Below are positions 16,217 to 26,087 of a DNA stretch of 26,087 nucleotides, one piece after another. Position 1 is the first letter of the stretch. The number at the start of each line of letters is the position of its first letter. Where the stretch lies: the IMG/VR virus record IMGVR_UViG_3300046001_009725, positions 1-26,087 of that record, one strand, 5' to 3'. The DNA is from a virus. A program made the position numbers and the translations under genes. Under the pieces are notes generated by a model that searched no databases, was not told the DNA's origin, and worked only from the letters and a program-made list of their open reading frames with translations.

Positions 16217-16447
16217 TCACGCCCACCGCCGCGCCGCCGCGGCCCAGCCGATGTCCGCCGCGTCGCGCCGCACCAGCCGGCTACGGCACCGCGCGGCCTC
16301 GCCGGGGCTCATCGCGGCGGTCGGCTGCCACCGCTCACCCCAGCCCCAGGCCGCCTGCCACGCCCCGAGCGCGAGCAGGTGCGCGCGCAGCCGGGCCGCC
16401 GACGACGTGCGCCGCTCCGTGCGGGCGAACCGCAGGCGGCGGGTCAT
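16217..16447 (-). CDS. Small basic hypothetical protein (76 aa)
   Basis: A 76-residue minus-strand protein whose ATG overlaps the upstream stop in an ATGA arrangement. It is rich in Arg, Ala and Trp (RLRFARTERRTSSAARLRAHLL, then WQAAWGWGERWQ, then RCRSRLVRRD) and probably helical and nucleic-acid-compatible, without Cys pairs or a membrane segment. High Arg/Ala content in GC-rich DNA lowers confidence, but the tight overlap with its neighbour supports a real gene. Function unknown. Confidence 0.5.
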   Translation of the reverse strand: MTRRLRFARTERRTSSAARLRAHLLALGAWQAAWGWGERWQPTAAMSPGEAARCRSRLVRRDAADIGWAAAARRWA

Positions 16448-16806
16448 CGGTCGCCACCAAGCGCCGCGAGCAGGTGCGCCCGCTCAAGGCCCTCCACCAG
16501 CGCATGAGCCTCATCCCAGACGTCGGCGCAGGGGGCGACCGACAGCCCTGCATCACGGGCCAGCCCGCGCAGAAAGTCCATCGTGGCGTGGTCGGCGTGG
16601 TGCGGGCGCAGGATGTCCAGGCTCAGATACACCTCGCCCGCCACCGGATTGCCGTCCGGCCAAGTGGCGCGGCAGAGGGCAAGCCGTTTCGTCGGGAGCA
16701 CCGAGAGGATCACCACCGAGCCATAGCGAATGACGGATGGAGCCATGCCGGGCACCCACCGCCACCCCGGAAGGCGCAAGGTCCGCAGCCACAGGGGCGC
16801 GCTCAT
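16444..16806 (-). CDS. Hypothetical protein (120 aa)
   Basis: A 120-residue minus-strand protein coupled to both neighbours by ATGA overlaps. The N-terminal half has Trp-rich strands (LRTLRLPGWRWVPGMAPSVIRY, VVILSVLPTKRLALCRATWPDG). The second half is helical (YLSLDILRPHHADHATMDFLRG, DVWDEAHALVEGLERAHLLAAL). A His/Asp cluster (RPHHADHATMD) is notable, but no metal-binding family is recognised. It follows the Lar-like gene in the same operon. Function unknown. Confidence 0.55.
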   Translation of the reverse strand: MSAPLWLRTLRLPGWRWVPGMAPSVIRYGSVVILSVLPTKRLALCRATWPDGNPVAGEVYLSLDILRPHHADHATMDFLRGLARDAGLSVAPCADVWDEAHALVEGLERAHLLAALGGDR

Positions 16807-17742: not shown

Positions 17743-17916
17743 TCAGCGGCCGGTGTGACGGATGACGCGGGCGCGCTGGGGCTCGCTGATGCTGGCGAGC
17801 AGCGCGTCGCTGGGGCGGCCGGTGCGGCGCCACGTCTGCGTGTAGACGTCCCACACGGTCACGGTGGAATCGCGGTGGAAGGTGATGCGGTCGGCGGCGG
17901 CGAGGGTGGCGGTCAT
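17743..17916 (-). CDS. Small hypothetical protein, first gene of the leftward accessory block
   Basis: A 57-residue minus-strand protein. ATG 17916 has GGAG 7 bases upstream and lies about 52 bases after the predicted transcription start of the promoter at 17975-18003; ATG 18003 falls in that promoter and is rejected. The sequence has a beta start (DRITFHRDSTVTVWDVYTQTW) and a helical end (SDALLASISEPQRARVIRH). As the first gene under its own promoter it is probably expressed early. Function unknown. Confidence 0.6.
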   Translation of the reverse strand: MTATLAAADRITFHRDSTVTVWDVYTQTWRRTGRPSDALLASISEPQRARVIRHTGR

Positions 17917-17974
17917 GGTGGCTCCGGTGGGCTGGGCCCGGTGGCGGTCGGCTGGTGTGCCGCCCCGCCCCACC

Positions 17975-18003
17975 GTCATACCATCGGCGCGTCGGTACGT
18001 CAA
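17975..18003 (-). promoter_or_regulatory. Sigma70-like promoter for the leftward accessory block
   Basis: Reading the minus strand, TTGACG (plus coordinates 17998-18003) and TATGAC (17975-17980) are separated by exactly 17 bases. The region is AT-rich compared with its surroundings and follows the 3' end of the Rad50-like gene. It would drive the genes from 17916 down to 15488. The operator-like repeat at 18004-18026 lies directly upstream of the -35. Confidence 0.65.
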
Positions 18004-18026
18004 CGCTTCAACGACGGTTTATCGGC
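18004..18026 (-). repeat. Operator-like 23-base repeat, copy C
   Basis: On the minus strand this reads GCCGATAAACCGTC, then four variable bases plus a T, then AAGCG, directly abutting the -35 TTGACG. It matches copy A (22735-22757) at 19 of 23 positions and copy B (22757-22779) at 18 of 23. Copy B also directly abuts a TTGACG -35. The shared position just upstream of two promoters suggests a common activator or repressor site. Confidence 0.6.
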
Positions 18027-18036
18027 ACTTTGTTTG

Positions 18037-20085
18037 TCACCCGTTGAAGACGGCGACCTCGACGGCGCTTTCGCCTGCCGTCTCCAGCACCCACACGGGC
18101 CCACGCGCGCTCAGGCGGCCGCTCCAGCCCTGGGCGCCGTCAACGACCACGGGGACGTCGGCGTAGCTCAGCAGGCCGCCGGGGTAGCGGGCGGCGGCGA
18201 GGTCGCGGATGGCGAGCCGGATGTCGCAGTCGGCGGCGATCTGGCGGCCGGTCGAGGCCAGCCACCACGGGCGGCCGTCGATGACGATCGAGGCCTCGGG
18301 CGCGCCGTCGGCAAGGGTTCCGAAGACCACGCGGACGCCCGTCCGGGCGGGGAGGGCGGACTGGAGGGCGGCAGCGGCTTGGGCAGCGGCCTCCGTCGGG
18401 GCCCGCCGGACGACGTCGAGGACGAGCTCGGCGCGCTCCACCTCGGCGCAGGCGGCAGCGTGGGCGGCAGCGGCAGCCCCATGAGCGGCCTCGGCCTCCG
18501 CGACCTGGGCCTGCCACCGGCCCACGGCGGCGGCGTGCCCAGCGGCAGCCCCAGCGACCTGGGCGTCGGCGGCGTCGTAGCTGCGGATCATCGCCTCGGC
18601 GCGAGCTCGGGCGTCTGCCGCGGTGCCCTGGAAGGCCGGAGCCACCACCTCGGAGGGCGCGGTCGGCACGGCGTCGGGCGTGGGTGGGGGCTGCCCCAGG
18701 GCGGCGAGGGCGCGGCTGTGGGCGGCGAGAGCGACCATCGCGGCCTGGTGAGCGGCGACGGCCTGGCGCCCGGCCTCGAGGGCCTGCTCGGCGCGGGTGA
18801 GGGCGGCCTGGGCTTCGTCGCTGGCCGCCTTGGCGGTCGCGATCTGGCGCTCCCGGTGCGCGGTGTCAGCACGCTCGGCCTCGAACAGCGCGGCCTCTGC
18901 GGCGTGCGCCTCGCCCTCGGCGGCCGTGCGGTTCTTGACCGCGTGCTCGGCTGTCACCACCTGGCCGCACGTCTCGCACGTCCCCTCGCCGACCATGAGG
19001 GCTTGATCGACGGTGTGCTCGGCGGCGGCAGCGCGGGCACGGGCCGACAGCACGGCCGCCGACGGCTGCGCGGCGCGGGCCTGCATCACGGCGCGCGCGG
19101 CATCGAGGGCAGCGGCGCGGACGGCGGCCTCCTCCTCGAGCAGGGCCCCGAGCCCGGGGCAGTCCCCCGGGTGGGCCGGGGCAGCCCCCAGGGCGGCGCG
19201 CCTGGACTCGTAGCTGAGGACGGCCGCGTGCTGCGCGTCGATGGCCTCCAGGGCCCGGCGGTGCGCGGCGAGGGCGCGCTCGTAGGCCTCCCAGGCGTCC
19301 AGCCGGGTCAGAAAGTTCTTGGCGCGCCCGGCGTCGGCCAGCATGACGCCAAGCTCATACCCGCTCTTCGTCGCGGGCTTGGCGGGCTCCGAGGCCCTGA
19401 GGTTGGTCAAGGTCGCCTCCCGCGCCTGGAGCGCCCCGAGGGCGCGCTCGCGGGCGCTGCGGGCCTCCGTCGCGCGGTCGGCGGCGCCGACCTGGCGCGT
19501 CTTGCCGCGGCCGCTGCTCGCCTCGACCACGGGCTCGTCGTCGCGCAGGTCGGGGACGTAGCGGCGGACGATGGCGCGGTGGTCTGCCTCGGGCAAGACC
19601 GACAGCAGAAGGTCGCGCAGGGGGCGGCCCCTCGACTGCTCGCCTAGCTGGGCCACGCGACCGGGCGCGAGGATGGCGAGGGCGATGGTCGGGTCGAGGC
19701 CGAGCAGGGTCTGCCACGCGGCCTGAGACGCCACCGACTCCACGGGCCGGCTGTCCGGCTGTCCGGCGACCTGGGGCTGCCCCAGGACGTCCCAGGTGCG
19801 GCTCCGGGCCTCCGTGATGCTGGTCCGGAGCGCGGTGCCGTCGGCGAGCCCGAGCGCGACCGCGGCCTTGGTCTCGCCGTCGCGGATGAGCTCAACGGGC
19901 CACGCGCCGCCGGTCGAGGCCGTGCCGCAGAGCAGGAGCGCGAGGGCGTGCAAAGTCGTCGTCTTGCCCGACTGCGACGGGCCGCTGATGATCAGGTGCG
20001 AGCCCTCGGGCACGGGCGGAATGCGGATGGTGGTCGAGGCGATCGGCCCGATGGCGCGGATGGAAAGGGTCTTGAAGGTCGGCAT
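18037..20085 (-). CDS. Rad50/SbcC-like SMC-family ATPase with CxxC zinc hook
   Basis: A 682-residue SMC-like ATPase, probably acting on DNA ends in recombination or repair. The Walker A motif is GPSQSGKTT at residues 35-43. Two long Ala/Glu/Arg coiled-coil arms (about 205-365 and 378-600) flank a CETC pair (Cys370, Cys373) near the middle, the position of the Rad50 zinc hook. The C-terminal domain has a signature-like STGRQIAADCDIRLAIRDL. Its Walker B reads VPVVVDGAQGW (Asp649 to Gln652), without the usual following Glu. No Mre11/SbcD partner is in the window. The start is ATG 20085 with AGGAG upstream. Confidence 0.8.
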   Translation of the reverse strand: MPTFKTLSIRAIGPIASTTIRIPPVPEGSHLIISGPSQSGKTTTLHALALLLCGTASTGGAWPVELIRDGETKAAVALGLADGTALRTSITEARSRTWDVLGQPQVAGQPDSRPVESVASQAAWQTLLGLDPTIALAILAPGRVAQLGEQSRGRPLRDLLLSVLPEADHRAIVRRYVPDLRDDEPVVEASSGRGKTRQVGAADRATEARSARERALGALQAREATLTNLRASEPAKPATKSGYELGVMLADAGRAKNFLTRLDAWEAYERALAAHRRALEAIDAQHAAVLSYESRRAALGAAPAHPGDCPGLGALLEEEAAVRAAALDAARAVMQARAAQPSAAVLSARARAAAAEHTVDQALMVGEGTCETCGQVVTAEHAVKNRTAAEGEAHAAEAALFEAERADTAHRERQIATAKAASDEAQAALTRAEQALEAGRQAVAAHQAAMVALAAHSRALAALGQPPPTPDAVPTAPSEVVAPAFQGTAADARARAEAMIRSYDAADAQVAGAAAGHAAAVGRWQAQVAEAEAAHGAAAAAHAAACAEVERAELVLDVVRRAPTEAAAQAAAALQSALPARTGVRVVFGTLADGAPEASIVIDGRPWWLASTGRQIAADCDIRLAIRDLAAARYPGGLLSYADVPVVVDGAQGWSGRLSARGPVWVLETAGESAVEVAVFNG

Positions 20086-20115
20086 GGTCGGCTCCTGAGG
20101 TCTTGAGCGGGTGGT

Positions 20116-20141
20116 GCGCGCCGGAGGCCCGGTCGGCGCGC
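20116..20141 (-). other. GC-rich hairpin upstream of the Rad50-like gene
   Basis: An 8-bp perfect stem (GCGCGCCG at 20116-20123 with CGGCGCGC at 20134-20141) with a 10-base loop sits between the 41-residue gene and the Rad50-like gene. No T run follows. It may tune downstream expression or protect mRNA ends after processing; it is not a classical terminator. Confidence 0.35.
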
Positions 20142-20169
20142 TGGGGGAGGGCTACGGGCGCCCGGCGGG

Positions 20170-20295
20170 TCAGTACCAGCCGCCGTTGCACTCCTCATCG
20201 TCGGCGGGGTCGGCGGTGGCGCCGAACGGGGAGGTGCTGATCCCGCACTCGGCGAGGGCGAGCAGGGCGGCGAGGGCGGCAGCGATGGTGGACAT
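20170..20295 (-). CDS. 41-residue hypothetical protein
   Basis: A 41-residue minus-strand ORF from ATG 20295 to TGA at 20170-20172. AGGAG lies 5 bases before the start. The N-terminal half is hydrophobic and helical (MSTIAAALAALLALAECG) and the tail is acidic with a second Cys (DPADDEECNGGWY). The Cys16 context, LAEC, is a poor lipobox. The good ribosome site and position inside the recombination operon support translation. Function unknown. Confidence 0.5.
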   Translation of the reverse strand: MSTIAAALAALLALAECGISTSPFGATADPADDEECNGGWY

Positions 20296-20312
20296 GGGGA
20301 CTCCTGGGGGCG

Positions 20313-20330
20313 CGCCGATCCCGGTCGGCG
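20313..20330 (-). other. Small hairpin upstream of the 41-residue gene
   Basis: A 6-bp perfect stem (CGCCGA at 20313-20318 with TCGGCG at 20325-20330) and a 6-base loop lie in the 72-base gap between the acidic-tailed gene and the 41-residue gene, just upstream of the latter's AGGAG. It could be a local mRNA structure; no terminator features are present. Confidence 0.3.
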
Positions 20331-20367
20331 GGCGTGGTGAATGAGGCGCCGGGACGCCAGGGGTCAG

Positions 20368-20829
20368 CTACTGCAAGCCGCCGAAGAAGTCCTCGCCCTC
20401 TTCCTCAGGAGCGGGCTCCGCGGCGGCGGGGGTCGGCTCGGCGAAAAGGTCCTCGCCCTCGGGCTGGGCCTCGGGCGCGGCCTCGACGACGGGCGCGGGC
20501 TCCGTCTGGGGCGCGTCGGTGCCGCGGTTCTTGCGCGGGCGGCCGCGGGTGGCGCGCGGGGCGGACGCGAGCAGGTCGTCGGGCTCGGCGGCGGGGCTCG
20601 GGGCGGGAGCGGGCGCCGGGGCGGGCTCAGCGGCCGGGCTGGGCTCCGGGGCCGGCTCGGCCTCGGGCGTCGGCTCGGCTTCGGTCCGGGTCCGCATGTC
20701 GTCCATGAGGCTGCGCGCGCTGGCGAGCAGGTCGTCGAGGATGGTCGCCTTTGCGTCGCGAAGCTCGCGGTCCGCGCCGATGACGAGTCCGAGCAGGTTG
20801 AGGGTGAAGTCAGCTTTGGGGGTCGGCAT
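20368..20829 (-). CDS. Low-complexity protein with AT-hook-like motif and acidic-aromatic tails
   Basis: A 153-residue minus-strand protein with GGAGGAG upstream of ATG 20829, embedded in the end of the preceding gene. Residues 1-48 are helical (LNLLGLVIGADRELRDAKATI, split by a basic turn). Residues 49-84 are a Pro/Ala/Glu linker (EPSPAAEPAPAPAPAPSP). Residues 93-102 carry a basic AT-hook-like RGRPRKN. Two repeats, EGEDLFAEP (about 124-132) and EGEDFFGGL (about 144-152), make an acidic-aromatic tail. The plan of domain, linker and acidic tip recalls ssDNA-binding protein tails that recruit partners. Direct function is unknown; it sits between the ssDNA-binding-type and Rad50-like genes. Confidence 0.6.
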   Translation of the reverse strand: MPTPKADFTLNLLGLVIGADRELRDAKATILDDLLASARSLMDDMRTRTEAEPTPEAEPAPEPSPAAEPAPAPAPAPSPAAEPDDLLASAPRATRGRPRKNRGTDAPQTEPAPVVEAAPEAQPEGEDLFAEPTPAAAEPAPEEEGEDFFGGLQ

Positions 20830-20832
20830 GGT

Positions 20833-21477
20833 CTACTCCTCCCCGCCTTCTGCGGGGGCTTCGTGGTGGTCGTTGGCGGCGGGGGCAGTCCCCCGGATGA
20901 CATCGGAGACGCCGGGCCAGCCGCTGAGCAGCTTCTGGGCAAGGCGGGCGCGGCGGTCGGGTTCGGTCGGGATCGTGGTGGGCTTGGGCAGCGCCGAGAG
21001 GGCCCCTGCGAGGGCGGCTTCGCTGGCCTGGAGGGCCGCGAGCGCGAGGGGCAGCGGGTCGCCGGTCGGGACCAACCGACACTGGGCCGGGGGCTTGCGG
21101 GCGCCGAGGTTCACCGCCACCGTGACCGCCTCCGTCAAGTGAGGCGCGCCCATGACCCGGATTCCGCCGACGACCTTGGAGCCGACGCGAACGGTGGGGT
21201 CTTGGCGCAGGGTCACCAGTTTGCCGACCCATCCGCCGGTCCGCTCGCCCCAGAGGTGCGCGAGGCAGCCGGCGGTGGTGCGGCAGGGAAGCCACGGCTT
21301 CAAGCGGCTGTCGAGGTGCACCACAAGCCGGTCGCGGTTCTGCTTCGTCTTCGGGTCCTCGACGGCCTCGACGCCGACGGCGACGATCCGCACGGTCTGG
21401 CCCGTCGTCGGCATGTCGGGCGCGCTCAGGAAGCGGCCGCCGAAAAGGGCGCGGTAATCGAGATCCTCGTCACTCAT
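20833..21477 (-). CDS. Probable ssDNA-binding / recombination-associated phage protein
   Basis: A 214-residue minus-strand protein that overlaps the RecE-like gene by 8 bases. The N-terminal 125 residues follow a common phage recombination-associated pattern: ALFGGRFLSAPDM start, a VRIVAVGVEAVED strand, DRLVVHLDSRLKPWLPC, AHLWGERTGGWVGKLVTLRQDP, then VGGIRVMGAP. Relatives with this layout (alternating strands, a GD/GxWxGKxVTL turn, then a dipeptide-IRV close) are encoded next to phage exonucleases and are thought to bind single-stranded DNA. The C-terminus is a helical, charged tail. The precise biochemical role is inferred from neighbours. Confidence 0.6.
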   Translation of the reverse strand: MSDEDLDYRALFGGRFLSAPDMPTTGQTVRIVAVGVEAVEDPKTKQNRDRLVVHLDSRLKPWLPCRTTAGCLAHLWGERTGGWVGKLVTLRQDPTVRVGSKVVGGIRVMGAPHLTEAVTVAVNLGARKPPAQCRLVPTGDPLPLALAALQASEAALAGALSALPKPTTIPTEPDRRARLAQKLLSGWPGVSDVIRGTAPAANDHHEAPAEGGEE

Positions 21478-22330
21478 GGGTCACCTCGTTGGGGTCGTCG
21501 TCGCCATAGGCCCAGGCTGGCAGGTGCAGCTCGGAGAGGTCGGGGGACTGCCCCCACATCGGGCCCGTGGACTCGTCGAGGTGCGCGACGTGCCGCAAGG
21601 CCTCGGCCCGCACCGCGGCACCGCAGAAGATCGCCTCACCCTGACCGAAGACGCCGAGGCTGACGACACTCACGTCGAGCATCGGCCTCGTCTCGTAGGC
21701 GATGATCATGGCCTCGATGGGCCGGGGGCTGATCCCGAGGGTGCGGCAGACGGCGCCGAGGCCGGCGCAGTAGTGCGCGAGCTGGGCATGGTACAGGCGG
21801 CGGGCGACCTCGGAGGCCAGCTTCCGCGGGGCGATGCTGGGCACCGCCTTGAGGTCCGCGACGATCCAGCGGTCGTCCTGCATGATGAGCAGGTCGATCC
21901 GGCCTTTCATCCGGCGCCCACCCTCAGCCCAGGTCAAGGTCACCTCGCCCTTGCCGCCGTCGTGCCGCACGAGCGGCCCCGCTACCGGGTGCGCGTGGAT
22001 GGCCGAGCGGACGGCCTCGACCTGGGCCGCCTCCGTGACGCTCAGCAGGTGCCGGTGAGGGGCAGCCGCGCGCGCCGCTTCGTAGGCTGAGCCCTGGCGC
22101 CGACCGGCCCAGGTGCCGAAATCGCGGCCAAAGGCCTTGGGCTCGAGCACGGCCGCGTGGCAGGCCCTGAGCATCCCGCGGTCGGCGGTGTCGTCGCCCG
22201 CAAGCTCCCCGCGGACAGCCGCGGCAAAATGCGCGGGGCTGGTTACGGCGTGTTTCAGCGTGCTCCAGTTCAGGCCCGGCAGCGCCTGATAGGCCGCGAA
22301 CGACAGGCCGGTCTTCATCGTCACGCTCAT
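21470..22330 (-). CDS. RecE-like PD-(D/E)XK exonuclease
   Basis: A 286-residue nuclease of the RecE C-terminal / exonuclease VIII type, which would resect double-stranded DNA ends for phage recombination. The start is ATG 22330 in an ATGA overlap; ATG 22408 lies in the upstream gene. Landmarks are LNWSTLKHAVTSPAHF near residues 20-35 (the family's SSTLKxxxxSPAHF element), a His at 58, Glu129, Asp146 in GRIDLLI, Asp159-Leu-Lys161 in VADLKAV, and YHAQLAHY with Gln183 and Tyr187. Together these give the E-D-DxK active site and its helical support. It is followed by the ssDNA-binding-type gene, the expected partner. Confidence 0.8.
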   Translation of the reverse strand: MSVTMKTGLSFAAYQALPGLNWSTLKHAVTSPAHFAAAVRGELAGDDTADRGMLRACHAAVLEPKAFGRDFGTWAGRRQGSAYEAARAAAPHRHLLSVTEAAQVEAVRSAIHAHPVAGPLVRHDGGKGEVTLTWAEGGRRMKGRIDLLIMQDDRWIVADLKAVPSIAPRKLASEVARRLYHAQLAHYCAGLGAVCRTLGISPRPIEAMIIAYETRPMLDVSVVSLGVFGQGEAIFCGAAVRAEALRHVAHLDESTGPMWGQSPDLSELHLPAWAYGDDDPNEVTHE

Positions 22331-22704
22331 AGGAGCACGTCGGCGGTGTTGGCCTCGCTCAGCGCCGCGAAGAGGATCTGGGCCGCGCGACGGTCGCGGA
22401 CGGCCCACATGTTTCGGAGCTCCACCGCGAGCTCATGGGTGGGGCTGTTCGTGGGCTGGCCCCGAACGAGGCCAGCAATCAGGCGGGCCGCCGTGTGTCT
22501 GGCGTCCATGCGCGTGGTCACGACCGGGCCCTGCGCTGCGGCGAGGGGGCCGAGCGCGATCTGGACTGGCGAGCCGGGGCGGGCGGCCTCGGAAAGCAGG
22601 CGGGCGATGACGCCGTGCTGCGGAATGGCGGGGTTGGCTTGCATGATCGAGATCACCGCCGAGCGGGCGGCCTCTCTGCTGTAGCGGGTTTCAGGGTCGT
22701 GCAT
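22327..22704 (-). CDS. Hypothetical protein, first gene of the leftward recombination block
   Basis: A 125-residue minus-strand protein. ATG 22704 has GGAGG with a 6-base spacer; ATG 22743 lies in the promoter and is rejected. It is helical and charged (YSREAARSAVISIMQ, then VIARLLSEAARPG, then DARHTAARLIAGLVRG, then HELAVELRNMWAVRDRRAAQIL). No Cys pairs, membrane segment or catalytic motif. Being first in the operon and overlapped by the RecE-like gene, it may be a recombination accessory protein. Function unknown. Confidence 0.6.
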   Translation of the reverse strand: MHDPETRYSREAARSAVISIMQANPAIPQHGVIARLLSEAARPGSPVQIALGPLAAAQGPVVTTRMDARHTAARLIAGLVRGQPTNSPTHELAVELRNMWAVRDRRAAQILFAALSEANTADVLL

Positions 22705-22721
22705 CGTGCACCTCCGCAGCC

Positions 22722-22750
22722 GTTGTATCTGGGCGCCGATCAACCGTCAA
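22722..22750 (-). promoter_or_regulatory. Leftward sigma70-like promoter of the recombination block
   Basis: On the minus strand TTGACG (plus coordinates 22745-22750) and TACAAC (22722-22727) are 17 bases apart. The predicted start lies at about 22715, the first base of the GGAGG that serves ATG 22704, so the leader is extremely short. The -35 overlaps repeat copy A, so a protein bound there could block this promoter. Confidence 0.6.
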
Positions 22751-22779
22751 TCAAGCGGCGATAAAAAGTTGTGGAAGCG
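22735..22779 (+). repeat. Tandem pair of operator-like 23-base repeats, copies A and B
   Basis: Copy A (22735-22757) and copy B (22757-22779) start 22 bases apart, about two helical turns. A reads GCCGATCAACCGTC with an AAGCG end; B reads GGCGATAAAAAGTT with the same AAGCG end. A and B match each other at 14 of 23 positions, and each matches copy C (18004-18026) better. B directly abuts the -35 of the rightward promoter, as C does at its own promoter. Confidence 0.55.
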
Positions 22780-22808
22780 TTGACGGATGGGTGCCGCCGC
22801 TGTAGACT
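22780..22808 (+). promoter_or_regulatory. Rightward sigma70-like promoter of the resolvase/helicase block
   Basis: TTGACG (22780-22785) and TAGACT (22803-22808) are separated by exactly 17 bases. The predicted start is at about 22815, where the GGAGG (22815-22819) for ATG 22826 begins. It mirrors the leftward promoter, with repeat copy B immediately upstream, so both halves of the early region may answer to one regulator. Confidence 0.65.
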
Positions 22809-22825
22809 GGGGGCGGAGGTGCTCC

Positions 22826-23026
22826 ATGTCCAGAGAGATCGGACCGGCCGAGAGCCGGATGGTGAGGGCGCAGCAGGACTTGATCGCGGATCTGCGCCGC
22901 GACCTGCGGGCGAGCGAGGCACGGGTCGCGAGCCTTCAGCGCGAGGTGAGCGAGCTCAAGAACGTCGTCGCCGGGCTGCGGCGCTTGGCTCGGGTGGCCC
23001 GGTCGGGCCTGTCGGTGTTCGCATGA
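22826..23026 (+). CDS. Small coiled-coil protein (66 aa)
   Basis: A 66-residue protein starting at ATG 22826 with GGAGG 6 bases upstream. It is highly charged with a heptad pattern (DLIADLRRDLRASEARVASLQ, then EVSELKNVVAGLRRLARVA) covering most of its length, ending in a basic hydrophobic tail. It is probably a short helical coiled-coil dimer. It is the first gene of the rightward block and overlaps the resolvase start by 4 bases. It could be a small regulator or a structural partner; no family is recognised. Confidence 0.6.
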   Translation: MSREIGPAESRMVRAQQDLIADLRRDLRASEARVASLQREVSELKNVVAGLRRLARVARSGLSVFA

Positions 23027-23562
23027 GCGCCGCCTTTGTCTACATCGGGATCGATCCTGGGCAGCACGGGGCCGTCGCCGCCCTCCGGCTGGCCCCCCAG
23101 AGCGCCGCGGTCGCCCTGCGCTTCGGCCACGGGCGCGACGGCTACCACGGGGCCTATCTGTCGGCGAAGACGGTCCGGCGCGTGCTCGCGGAGGTCATCG
23201 CGGAGGTCGGCGGCGCCGCGCACGAGGTCATCATCGGGCTCGAAGGGCTCGGCAAGCGGCCGGGCGAGGGCACGGTCTCGACCTCGACCGCGGCCGAGAA
23301 CTATGCCGCGTGGCAGGCCGTCCTCGACCTCGACTGGGAGGATCAGCACCGGGTCATCCAGACGCAGACGGTGGACCGGGCGATGGGTCTGCCTCGCGGG
23401 ATGGGGCGCGTCCGCAAAGGCCTCGTCATCGTCGAGGCCCGCGCGGCCGCGCTTCGGCTCGGGGTGCCGTCGGTGTCGCTGATTCCGCCGGGTGGGCGCG
23501 CGCCGAGCGATGGGGCCGCGGACGCGCTGTTGATCGCCCTGGCGCTCCAGAGGGGGCTGTGA
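23023..23562 (+). CDS. RuvC-like Holliday junction resolvase
   Basis: A 179-residue RNase H-fold nuclease of the RuvC type, which would resolve four-way DNA junctions formed during phage recombination or clear branched DNA before packaging. The start is ATG 23023 in an ATGA overlap. Catalytic landmarks are FVYIGIDPGQHGAVA with Asp11, VIIGLEGLG with Glu74, and a C-terminal PSDGAADALLIALAL with Asp163 and Asp167, matching the family's D-E-D-D set. The size fits RuvC (about 170 residues). It lies beside the other recombination genes. Confidence 0.8.
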   Translation: MSAAFVYIGIDPGQHGAVAALRLAPQSAAVALRFGHGRDGYHGAYLSAKTVRRVLAEVIAEVGGAAHEVIIGLEGLGKRPGEGTVSTSTAAENYAAWQAVLDLDWEDQHRVIQTQTVDRAMGLPRGMGRVRKGLVIVEARAAALRLGVPSVSLIPPGGRAPSDGAADALLIALALQRGL

Positions 23563-24053
23563 TGTCTAAGTGTTGGACCGTGCGAACCTTGCAGACCGGC
23601 ACCGATCCTCAGTCGGGCGCGGTGCCCTACCATGCCTCCTGGGTCTTCCTGGGCGAGCACGCGGAGACGGCGGCCCGGCGCCGCTTTGACGTTGAGCGGC
23701 GCGGCCTCCAGGTCCGCATCGCGACGCGGACGGCCCACGCCGACGACGTCGTGAAGCTGGAGCGCGACTTCGTGGTCATAGACGCGCATTGGGCGCCCGG
23801 CGACATCAAGGTGCGCGACCTCGCCCCGCCACCTATCTTCGACCTCGCCCCGCCACCTATCTTCGACCTCGACCCGCCACCTATCTTCGACCTCGACCCG
23901 CCGCGGCGCCGGGCCATCAACGAGCCGCCGACCGATCCCGAGGTCGTGGCGCTGCTCCAGACCTTCAGCCAGATGAGCGCGGACGATCGATACGAGGTGC
24001 TCCGGCGGCTGGCCCAGCAGGCCCCGGTGAGCTTCACGCGAGGCGACCGATGA
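23562..24053 (+). CDS. Hypothetical protein with 8-residue tandem repeats
   Basis: A 163-residue protein starting at ATG 23562, sharing one base with the resolvase stop. The N-terminal 80 residues form an alpha/beta region (VFLGEHAETAARRRFDVERRG, VVKLERDFVVIDAHWAPGD). Residues 86-113 hold the repeat units DLAPPPIF, DLAPPPIF, DLDPPPIF and a partial DLDPP. The C-terminus is helical (PEVVALLQTFSQMSADDRYEVLRRLAQQ). The repeats form a proline-rich extended linker and may bind a partner through the PPIF core. No enzyme motif is seen; function unknown. Confidence 0.6.
   Translation: MSKCWTVRTLQTGTDPQSGAVPYHASWVFLGEHAETAARRRFDVERRGLQVRIATRTAHADDVVKLERDFVVIDAHWAPGDIKVRDLAPPPIFDLAPPPIFDLDPPPIFDLDPPRRRAINEPPTDPEVVALLQTFSQMSADDRYEVLRRLAQQAPVSFTRGDR
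23817..23902 (+). repeat. 24-base coding tandem repeat, 3.6 units
   Basis: Three full 24-base units (23817-23840, 23841-23864, 23865-23888) and a 14-base partial fourth (23889-23902) lie inside the coding sequence. Units 1 and 2 are identical; unit 3 differs by one base that changes Ala to Asp. Because the unit is a multiple of three, copy number can change without breaking the frame. Confidence 0.9.
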
Positions 24054-24232
24054 CCGGCCGCCTCGACTTCGACTTGACCGCCCGCACCGCCCCCGGTACG
24101 ATGCCACGTCGCCGCGTTTTCGCGGGCACGGCGACGGCTGAAGGACCGGTCGGGGGTGGCACCCTGCTCGGCCAGATGACCGCCGGGCGATTTTGTCCGG
24201 CGGCTGTCTGCGTTTTGGGCGGTGGCTCATGA
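24050..24232 (+). CDS. Possible 60-aa protein or structured leader (doubtful CDS)
   Basis: An ORF of 60 residues with an ATGA overlap at its start and another at its end where the next gene begins, which supports translation. However, after about codon 15 the third positions lose the strong G/C bias seen in neighbouring genes (CGT, GTT, GAA, GGA, CGA, TTT, TGT, GTT, TTG). The product (LDFDLTARTAPGTMPRRRVFAGTA) has no recognisable domain. It also contains a promoter-like pair at 24074-24102 and hairpins at 24112-24125 and 24180-24203. It may therefore be a non-coding leader or an overlapping small gene. Confidence 0.35.
   Translation: MTGRLDFDLTARTAPGTMPRRRVFAGTATAEGPVGGGTLLGQMTAGRFCPAAVCVLGGGS
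24074..24102 (+). promoter_or_regulatory. Possible internal promoter upstream of the YozE/helicase genes
   Basis: TTGACC (24074-24079) and TACGAT (24097-24102) are separated by 17 bases. A start near 24109 would give a leader of about 120 bases to ATG 24229, containing two hairpins. The operator-like repeat is absent here. It lies inside a doubtful ORF with relaxed codon bias, which makes a real promoter more plausible. Confidence 0.45.
24180..24203 (+). other. Leader hairpin ahead of the YozE/zinc-ribbon gene
   Basis: A 7-bp perfect stem (CCGCCGG at 24180-24186 with CCGGCGG at 24197-24203) can be lengthened by a G-U and a C-G pair and encloses a loop containing TTTT. A T run (TTTT at 24212-24215) follows about 8 bases later, too far for a normal terminator. 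A smaller stem (CCGCG/CGCGG with TTTT loop) lies at 24112-24125. Together they suggest a structured leader. Confidence 0.35.
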
Positions 24233-24789
24233 AGATGAAGATCGCCCCGCCGCCGGGCAAGGCCAACCGGCGGTCGTTCAGGATGTGGCTCAACGCGCAG
24301 GTCGGCCGAGAGGACCCGGTGGGCGACCTTGCCAACGACGCGCTCCGGCAGAGCTCCGGGACGTGGATCTCTCACTCCGACCTGCGCGCCAAGATGCGGA
24401 CCGCCGGGGCCTGCGCGGAGGCGATGCAAGCCCTGGAGGACGCGCGGAAGGAGTTTGCGGCCGGAGAGGTGGCGCACTTTGCCGCCAAGCGCAAGCCAGC
24501 GCCGGTCGCCGTGGTGCGGGCGGCGTCAGATCCCGTGCTCCAACGGTGCGCCGAGATGCTCTTCGAGCCGCCGTGCCCCTTCTGCGGCGACTTCTTCGCC
24601 GGGCTCTTCGAGGCGCGCTGGGAGGGGCTGGACTTCGGCACCGGCGAGTATTCGGCCCCGGTGGCGTCGGTCCGATGCCCGAAGTGCAGCGCGGCAGGCC
24701 CAGAGGCCCGCGGCGCGACGATGGACGAAGCCAAGGCGGCGGCCCTCGCCGCATGGGGGCGCCGTGTCGCCCCGCGGTGGACCTCATGA
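24229..24789 (+). CDS. YozE-like SAM-domain and zinc-ribbon fusion protein
   Basis: A 186-residue protein starting at ATG 24229. The N-terminal domain (residues about 16-75) has SFRMWLNAQVGREDPVGDLAND, the core of the YozE-like sterile-alpha-motif-like domain found in phage proteins. A basic linker precedes a zinc ribbon with CPFC (Cys116, Cys119) and CPKC (Cys150, Cys153), followed by DEAKAAALAAWGRR, which resembles the end of Lar-type ribbons (WN or WG then Arg). A fusion of the two is inferred. It may bind protein or nucleic acid; no activity is known. It overlaps the helicase start by 4 bases. Confidence 0.6.
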   Translation: MKMKIAPPPGKANRRSFRMWLNAQVGREDPVGDLANDALRQSSGTWISHSDLRAKMRTAGACAEAMQALEDARKEFAAGEVAHFAAKRKPAPVAVVRAASDPVLQRCAEMLFEPPCPFCGDFFAGLFEARWEGLDFGTGEYSAPVASVRCPKCSAAGPEARGATMDEAKAAALAAWGRRVAPRWTS

Positions 24790-26087
24790 GCGCGCTTCCC
24801 CTCCCCCCAGGCCAGACCGCCCGCGCCTGGCAGGTGGCCGCGCTCGCGGCGATCCAGTCGGCGGCGCAGTCGGGCCTCCGGCGGGTCGTGGTCAGCGCCG
24901 CGACGGGCACCGGCAAGGGCACGCTCTTGGCGGGGCTGGCCCGTGCTGCGGAGCGCGGTCGGGTGCTGATTCTCGTCCACCGCGACGAGCTGATCCGCGA
25001 CCTGGCCGCGCGGGTGCGGCTGATCCCCGGTGGGCTTGTCGGCATCGTCCGGGGCGCCGAGAACGGCCTCGGGGCGCCGATCGTGGTCGCGAGCGTGCAG
25101 ACGCTCCGGGGCGAGCGGCTGCGGCAGGTCGGCCGCTTTGGGCTCGTCATCACCGATGAGTGCCACCATGCCGTCGCGGCGACCTATCAGGCCATCTACG
25201 AGCGGGTCGCAGCGGTGCGGAAGGCCGCGGGGCTGCCCGAGGTCTTGCACGTCGGCATGACCGCGACCCCGTGGCGGACCGCGGCCGGGGGCGGTGTCTC
25301 GGGCCTGGGGGCTGCCTACGAGGCGATCGTGTACGAGCACGGCATCGTCGAGGCGATCGCGGCGGGCGACCTCGTGCGGCCGATCGGGGTGCGGATCGAC
25401 ACGCAGGTCGAGCTCGACCGGGTCGGGATGCGGGGGCGCGACTATGACCAGGAGGAACTCGCGGCGGTCATCGACTGCGGCGCCCGGAACGAAGCGGTCG
25501 CGCACTGGTACGCTGAGAACGGGGAGGGGCGGCCCTTCCTCGGGTTCGGGGTGTCGATCGCCCACGCCGAGCGGCTCGCCGAGGCGCTCCAGGGCGTCGG
25601 GGTGGCCTGCGCTGCGGTGCATGGGTCGATGCCGATGGCTGAGCGGCGGCGGTTGGTCGGGGCATATCAAAATGGCGAGTTGACGGGCCTGTTTAGCCGC
25701 GACCTGCTGCTTGAAGGCTTCGACGCCCCGCGCACCGAGGCGCTCTTGGTGGTGCGGCCGACGAAGAGCGAGATCATCAGGTGGCAGATGCTGGGCCGCG
25801 GGCTGCGGCTGGCCCCCGGCAAAAGCTCTTGCGTCGTTGCCGACTTCGTGGGCTTCCTCAGCGGGCTCGACCTGTCGATGCGGGTCGGGATCGAGGCCGG
25901 CGCCGAGGGCAAGACTGGGCCGGTGGAGCTCCGGCCGCTCATGGTCGGGGACGTGGTCGCGCACCGCTACGATGAGGGCCTCGGGCTGGGGCAGCTCCTG
26001 AGCACCGATGGGGTCATCGGCACGGTGGCGTGGGGCCTCGACAGCGACGCGCCGCGGGTGCGGCAGGTCCACGGGATCGCGGAGCTC
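24786..26087 (+). CDS. SF2 DEAD/DEAH-like helicase (partial, runs off the window)
   Basis: At least 434 residues, open to the window's right end. A superfamily 2 helicase, probably remodelling or unwinding DNA in replication or recombination. Motifs: AWQ at 14-16 (Q-motif region), ATGTGKG at 39-45 (motif I), DECHH at 124-128 (motif II), MTATPWR at 158-164 (motif III), LFSRDLLLEGFDAPR near 302-316 (motif V) and QMLGRGLR at 334-341 (motif VI). Motif I has Gly45 after Lys44 instead of the usual Thr or Ser. The start is ATG 24786 in an ATGA overlap with the YozE-like gene. Confidence 0.85.
   Translation, partial: MSALPLPPGQTARAWQVAALAAIQSAAQSGLRRVVVSAATGTGKGTLLAGLARAAERGRVLILVHRDELIRDLAARVRLIPGGLVGIVRGAENGLGAPIVVASVQTLRGERLRQVGRFGLVITDECHHAVAATYQAIYERVAAVRKAAGLPEVLHVGMTATPWRTAAGGGVSGLGAAYEAIVYEHGIVEAIAAGDLVRPIGVRIDTQVELDRVGMRGRDYDQEELAAVIDCGARNEAVAHWYAENGEGRPFLGFGVSIAHAERLAEALQGVGVACAAVHGSMPMAERRRLVGAYQNGELTGLFSRDLLLEGFDAPRTEALLVVRPTKSEIIRWQMLGRGLRLAPGKSSCVVADFVGFLSGLDLSMRVGIEAGAEGKTGPVELRPLMVGDVVAHRYDEGLGLGQLLSTDGVIGTVAWGLDSDAPRVRQVHGIAEL

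Follow-up and report, generated by a model that had tools for sequence, protein, structure and literature searches.

Arrays of 11-base direct repeats join three promoters of an uncultivated phage and point to a shared, probably phage-encoded regulator

The stretch of DNA analysed here (the window) is a 26,087-base IMG/VR virus fragment from an uncultivated phage with 73% GC (IMGVR_UViG_3300046001_009725, positions 1 to 26,087), and it carries two arrays of short direct repeats over the -35 elements of three predicted promoters. Two of these promoters diverge. The rightward one (22780-22808, plus strand) consists of a -35 TTGACG (22780-22785), a 17-base spacer and a -10 TAGACT (22803-22808), and its operon opens with a 66-residue coiled-coil protein (22826-23026), followed by a RuvC-like Holliday junction resolvase (23023-23562; phrog_1770, E 2.9e-6; orthologues 44-45% identical) and a helicase that is incomplete at the right end of the record (24753-26087; orthologues in the related records G001 and G004 56-61% identical). 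The leftward one (22723-22750, minus strand; -35 TTGACG at 22750-22745, 17-base spacer, -10 TACAAC at 22728-22723) faces a minus-strand operon whose first gene encodes a fast-diverging, predicted all-helical protein of 125 residues (22327-22704; 27% and 24% identical to its G001 and G004 counterparts). Further along the same strand lie a RecE/exonuclease VIII-like nuclease (21470-22330; phrog_412, E 9.7e-32; DUF3799, E 1.3e-11), a conserved early protein of phrog_11517 (20833-21477, for which 'ssb' is a working label only) and, as the last gene of the operon, a Rad50/SbcC-like ATPase (18037-20085; phrog_77, E 2.7e-6; a 41% identical orthologue in G004). The third promoter (17975-18003, minus strand; -35 TTGACG at 18003-17998, 17-base spacer, -10 TATGAC at 17980-17975), called C below, serves an accessory block. 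The first gene of this block, placed by a gene map based on third-position GC content (17743-17916, minus strand), encodes a 57-residue protein that matched no Pfam family.

A reading of this DNA made from the sequence alone, hereafter the sequence-only reading, had described a 23-base operator in three copies: A (22735-22757) and B (22757-22779) on the plus strand, sharing base 22757, and C (18026-18004) on the minus strand. Its coordinates and match counts are correct. Copies A and C agree at 19 of 23 positions, B and C at 18 and A and B at only 14, and positions 22760-22785 match the complement of 17998-18023 at 22 of 26. The 14-base core GCCGAT(a/c)AACCGTC, which it had assigned to all three copies, is present in A and C; B reads GGCGATAAAAAGTT instead. 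With at most one mismatch this core occurs at two places in the whole record, A and C, and no other 23-mer of the record matches at more than 15 of 23 positions, so the consensus has no background matches across the 26 kb. The same putative operator thus stands at more than one early promoter with few or no other copies, as in a phage operator set.

The true repeat unit is 11 bases rather than 23. Between the divergent promoters lies a five-unit array on the plus strand (22735-22789; GCCGATCAACC GTCAATCAAGC GGCGATAAAAA GTTGTGGAAGC GTTGACGGATG), supported by the lag-11 test and by a matrix trained on array C, and 4.7 kb away, at the accessory promoter, lies a three-unit array on the minus strand (18026-17994; GCCGATAAACC GTCGTTGAAGC GTTGACGTACC), supported by a matrix trained on the A/B units and by shuffles. 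Self-match in the A/B region is 0.55 at lag 11, the best of lags 5-23, and a fraction of 0.0005 of shuffles reach this value at any lag. For array C it is 0.59, which 0.0005 of shuffles reach at lag 11 and 0.051 at any lag. Lag 22 is second best in both arrays. Given an 11-base unit, copies A and B are therefore two double units set 22 bases apart. The rightward -35 lies inside unit 5 and that of promoter C inside unit 3 of its own array, whereas the leftward -35 (22745-22750) spans units 1 and 2, is covered by copy A as the sequence-only reading had said, and has unit 1 filling its spacer. The repeats run in the direction of transcription from the rightward and C promoters and against that from the leftward one, an orientation that had also been argued before. 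All three -35 elements thus fall within the two arrays, no such arrays occur elsewhere in the record, and anything bound to them would touch all three.

Lag-11 self-similarity is not unique to these sites, because GC-rich coding DNA of the same record scores comparably, and we dropped it as a stand-alone proof. The decisive evidence is that a matrix of one array finds the other. Trained on the five A/B units, the matrix scores array C at 32.8 and the next unrelated site in the record at 9.3; trained on array C, it scores the A/B array at 28.0 and the next unrelated site at 9.6. When the C region was shuffled with TTGACG held fixed, none of 20,000 shuffles reached 32.8 (maximum 26.6). A two-unit model lacking the -35 unit still gives C a score of 27.4, which ranks among the A/B units, against 14.2 for the best unrelated site. 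Just upstream of the -35, copies B and C are identical at 16 of 20 positions, equalled by one shuffle in 20,000, and in the spacer and -10 their identity falls to 8 of 23 (our own count from the sequence). This likeness ends at the -35, and we therefore regard it as that of a binding site and not of a recent promoter duplication. Through the reciprocal matrix searches and the shuffles with a fixed -35, the proposal of a shared cis element beyond the core promoter that links the three promoters holds. A real regulatory feature is well supported: the operator idea was right in substance and wrong in unit length.

Five related records were compared with the window: G001 (L003), G004 (L022), G005 (L023), G002 (L005) and G003 (L006). 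G001 and G004 have the same divergent layout, with 33-34 bases between the divergent -35 elements against 35 in the window and an A-tract between them in all three. At the promoter equivalent to C they carry arrays of the same kind in different letters (TGCAGCACACTTGCAGCATTCGTGCAGCG in G001, TGCAGCGGGGTTGCAGCGTTTGTGCAGCG in G004): each holds three TGCAGC units spaced 11 and 11 bases apart, the middle one containing the -35 and the third falling within the spacer. Neither record has TGCAGC at lag 11 at any other site, and among 2.9 million viral contigs the triplet pattern matches only those of G001 and G004. With a matrix built from the six TGCAGC units, the next-best place in G004 is the rightward promoter (17.1 against 12.1) and in G001 the leftward promoter region (17.3 against 9.7 with three units; 14.9 against 14.4, and thus weak, with two units only). 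These relatives therefore echo the C operator at their divergent promoters as well, though more weakly than the window does. G005 has an XRE-type gene and repeats of its own at the divergent region.

The other two relatives show how such a site may be replaced. G002 and G003 share structural DNA with the window at 96-100% and about 81-84% identity, respectively, and also, from the first accessory gene, the 5′ leader with its start codon (17905-17970, minus strand), which by blastn is 100% identical over 66 bases to G003 (L018) and 86% identical, with gaps, to G002 (L016). Homology breaks immediately downstream of the promoter C -10, and the leader in G002 and G003 is driven instead by TTGCGG-17-TATGCT with the palindrome AGCATAGCGCGCTATGCT. 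Exact copies of the palindrome core CATAGCGCGC(TATG) are confined to four places, promoters or intergenic sites, that coincide in the two records: at the C position, inside the leftward operon, in the divergent region and at a further rightward promoter (L018:1762, 4043, 8129 and 11708, with matching places in L016, L017 and L005). In this lineage a different, palindromic operator may thus do the same promoter-linking job. Because homology breaks just past the C -10, we infer that operator and early module were exchanged together. The leader seems to act as a mosaic joint that lets small first genes and operators be swapped; three phages have the leader and ATGACCGCCACC in common, with an unrelated promoter before it and an unrelated open reading frame (ORF) after it. 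The same module of G002 also contains a weak match to a LexA-type winged helix (L017:1914-2369, E 0.0067).

Taken together, these data make it likely that a single asymmetric DNA-binding regulator uses the repeats as its operators; it would bind in head-to-tail order, on the same face of the DNA and with one unit for each helical turn. When bound, it would occupy the -35 elements of the rightward promoter (coiled-coil protein, resolvase, helicase), the leftward promoter (RecE, Rad50-like protein) and the accessory promoter, and could control all three together through access of RNA polymerase. The near-consensus promoters have their -35 elements covered by the arrays, in G001 and G004 together with the spacer, and we therefore somewhat favour plain repression, such as a shut-off on passing from early to late expression or a block of the lysogeny type. 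The co-activation of the two co-oriented blocks with repression of the leftward one, which the sequence-only reading had put forward, is possible. Array C, which begins 10 bases past the stop codon of the Rad50-like gene, might in addition form a roadblock in the path of transcription from that gene.

Several results weigh against this interpretation. The array sequence is found in none of the five relatives, nor exactly in other viral contigs; in G005 the C-equivalent and divergent promoters have no motif in common; unit 5 scores only 0.5 bits when left out of training; and unit 3, mostly A-tract, scores 3.5 when left out. In addition, searches of the window, G001 and G004 records with the HTH_3, RHH_1, CII, Trans_reg_C and KfrA_N models found nothing. 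The sequence-only reading had expected the repeat to be conserved upstream of orthologous genes, and as a sequence it is not. What recurs in G001 and G004 is the kind of array. We read this as an exchange of specificity and not as a refutation: the layout persists, and the promoter-operator has been swapped along with the early module.

The regulator is probably encoded by the phage, somewhere within 17971-24091, since phages whose virions are nearly identical differ in operator identity and, along with it, in the module that contains both arrays. It would be exchanged along with the early genes and their operators, giving each lineage an operator specificity of its own, much like immunity regions. 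Pfam, PHROG and whole-record family searches recognised no DNA-binding regulator in the window, G001 or G004; Trans_reg_C (PF00486) had no match in the six records, in a search that detected its positive controls, and Phage_CII (PF05269) had none either. Once the enzymes are set aside, the small or unassigned products are those of 22327-22704, 22826-23026, 20368-20829, 23562-24053 and 20170-20295. The 125- and 66-residue proteins (22327-22704 and 22826-23026) head the two operons and diverge fastest in the module, at 21-33% identity where RecE, the helicase and the phrog_11517 protein keep 48-61%, and both are candidate regulators by position only. The fold of the 125-residue protein was also examined, with a poor helical model (pLDDT 66) and insignificant fold matches. 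A 68-residue ORF in G004 (16279-16485; L022:1501-1707, minus strand) has an end that adjoins the G004 C array. Its beta-alpha-alpha topology resembles that of a ribbon-helix-helix regulator, an assignment that we do not claim at a pLDDT of 59 and with no PDB match, and no counterpart of it was recognised in the window.

Some further features were seen along the way. The C leaders of the window, G004, G001 and G005 each begin with a GC-rich hairpin of differing sequence; these fold only slightly better than shuffles (z -0.7 to -1.8) and may reflect composition. The ORF at 23562-24053 contains a 24-base tandem repeat (23816-23902) that encodes repeated APPPIFDL/DPPPIFDL motifs. At 24074-24220 a promoter-like TTGACC-17-TACGAT is followed by an intergenic element of about 110 bases that is conserved in G002 (L017) and G003 (L018), with predicted strong hairpins and a few compensatory changes among only three sequences. 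Rfam gave no match to this element, which is possibly a small RNA or a leader ahead of the next genes. In G001 one gene is predicted twice, close to either end of the record (343-783 and 34913-35353) and with a few differences, possibly reflecting an imperfect terminal repeat or the assembly of two variants. Searches of bacterial genomes with RecE or the phrog_11517 early protein found no relatives, and the matches of terminase and RecE to named phages were too distant to name a host.

The main rival is that the repeats are bound by an OmpR/PhoB-class response regulator of the host (compare CtrA in alphaproteobacterial phages), through which the phage would sense the state of its host. An array of three to five direct repeats, 11 bases apart and at a -35, is the hallmark of that class (PMC3798270), host CtrA controls phage genes through TTAA-N7-TTAA sites, and in one Sphingomonas phage four direct repeats of 12 bases stand between the divergent blocks (PMC9437464). 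The arrays here, with at least two direct repeats spaced by about 11 bases at a promoter, have the spacing of the class. However, the arrays of the window, G001 and G004 contain neither the lambda CII motif nor any of seven known host motifs with 11-base spacing (CtrA, alphaproteobacterial LexA, PhoB, GlnR/MtrA, PhoP, ArcA and CII motifs gave no sequence match), and G002 and G003, with near-identical or similar virions and presumably similar hosts, use an unrelated palindrome at the same leader. We therefore consider a host regulator unlikely.

Less probable still is that no regulator is involved, and that the similarity is that of strong sigma-70 promoters with A/T-rich UP elements or of a decayed promoter duplication. 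Every copy does touch a -35, the A-tracts between the divergent -35 elements recur in G001 and G004, and self-similarity at lag 11 is not in itself unusual in the record. Core promoters alone would nevertheless not account for the shared core GCCGATMAACCGTC standing at differing distances from the -35 (in the left spacer in A, far upstream in C), for a similarity that is not carried on to the -10, for the recovery of C without the -35 unit, or for the exact 11/11 spacing of TGCAGC in two diverged relatives. ParR-type partition proteins bind short direct repeats that flank a promoter, and units of about one helical turn next to recombination and helicase genes could likewise be iterons of a replication origin or partition site, laid over promoters and bound by an initiator or segregation protein that also regulates its own synthesis. 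This we hold to be very improbable: no ParM/ParA or iteron-binding initiator was recognised beside the arrays among the scanned proteins, the second array sits at a distant accessory promoter, and the operator of G002 and G003 is a palindrome.

A phage regulator on direct repeats thus remains our preferred reading. Protein sequence mostly fails to reveal which genes of an uncultivated phage encode its early regulators, and here the DNA side can be read: the operator code, its spacing and its exchange among related phages leave a few small genes among which to look for the regulator. If the reading is right, immunity-like switching of operators takes place with direct-repeat arrays and not with palindromes. 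More tentatively, and with some doubt on our part, an unrecognised family of DNA-binding proteins may polymerise on 11-base repeats to control the early and accessory operons, with operator, regulator and module forming one specificity cassette. Such a cassette would give phages with near-identical virions different operator codes.

The design has several precedents. In lambda, CII is a single phage protein that acts on direct repeats at the -35 elements of pRE, pI and paQ, three promoters that belong to different operons, and its site is TTGC-N6-TTGC with a 10-base step around weak -35 elements. The likeness would lie in a single phage protein on direct repeats at three -35 elements; the step here is 11 bases, the -35 elements are near consensus, and TTGC-N6-TTGC is absent from the window and G001 and occurs twice in G004, away from these promoters. 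We do not claim membership in the CII or host-regulator families because the tested motifs did not match. Phage regulators on direct repeats include, besides lambda CII, the P2 C protein, whose operators have repeats 22 bases apart, or two helical turns, as A and B are here (PMC4752584). In P2 two 8-base repeats flank the -10 of one promoter, whereas here three to five units, repeating at 11 as well as 22 bases, lie over the -35 of three promoters, and no protein resembling P2 C was recognised. A known binding mode is that of ArcA, whose sites consist of three to five direct repeats with centres 11 bases apart (PMC3798270). These sites resemble the arrays in number, spacing and promoter position, as do PhoB and phage CtrA sites (PMC9437464); the window differs in that no tested motif matches, no Trans_reg_C protein is found in the records, and specificity changes between close relatives. 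The stoperators of cluster A mycobacteriophages are likewise asymmetric, oriented sites that occur at several places and are lineage-specific, but they are more than 20 single 13-base sites across the genome, against two arrays here (PMC9283540). The kind of system is thus already known, and what is unusual is its direct-repeat design and the exchange of that design between relatives.

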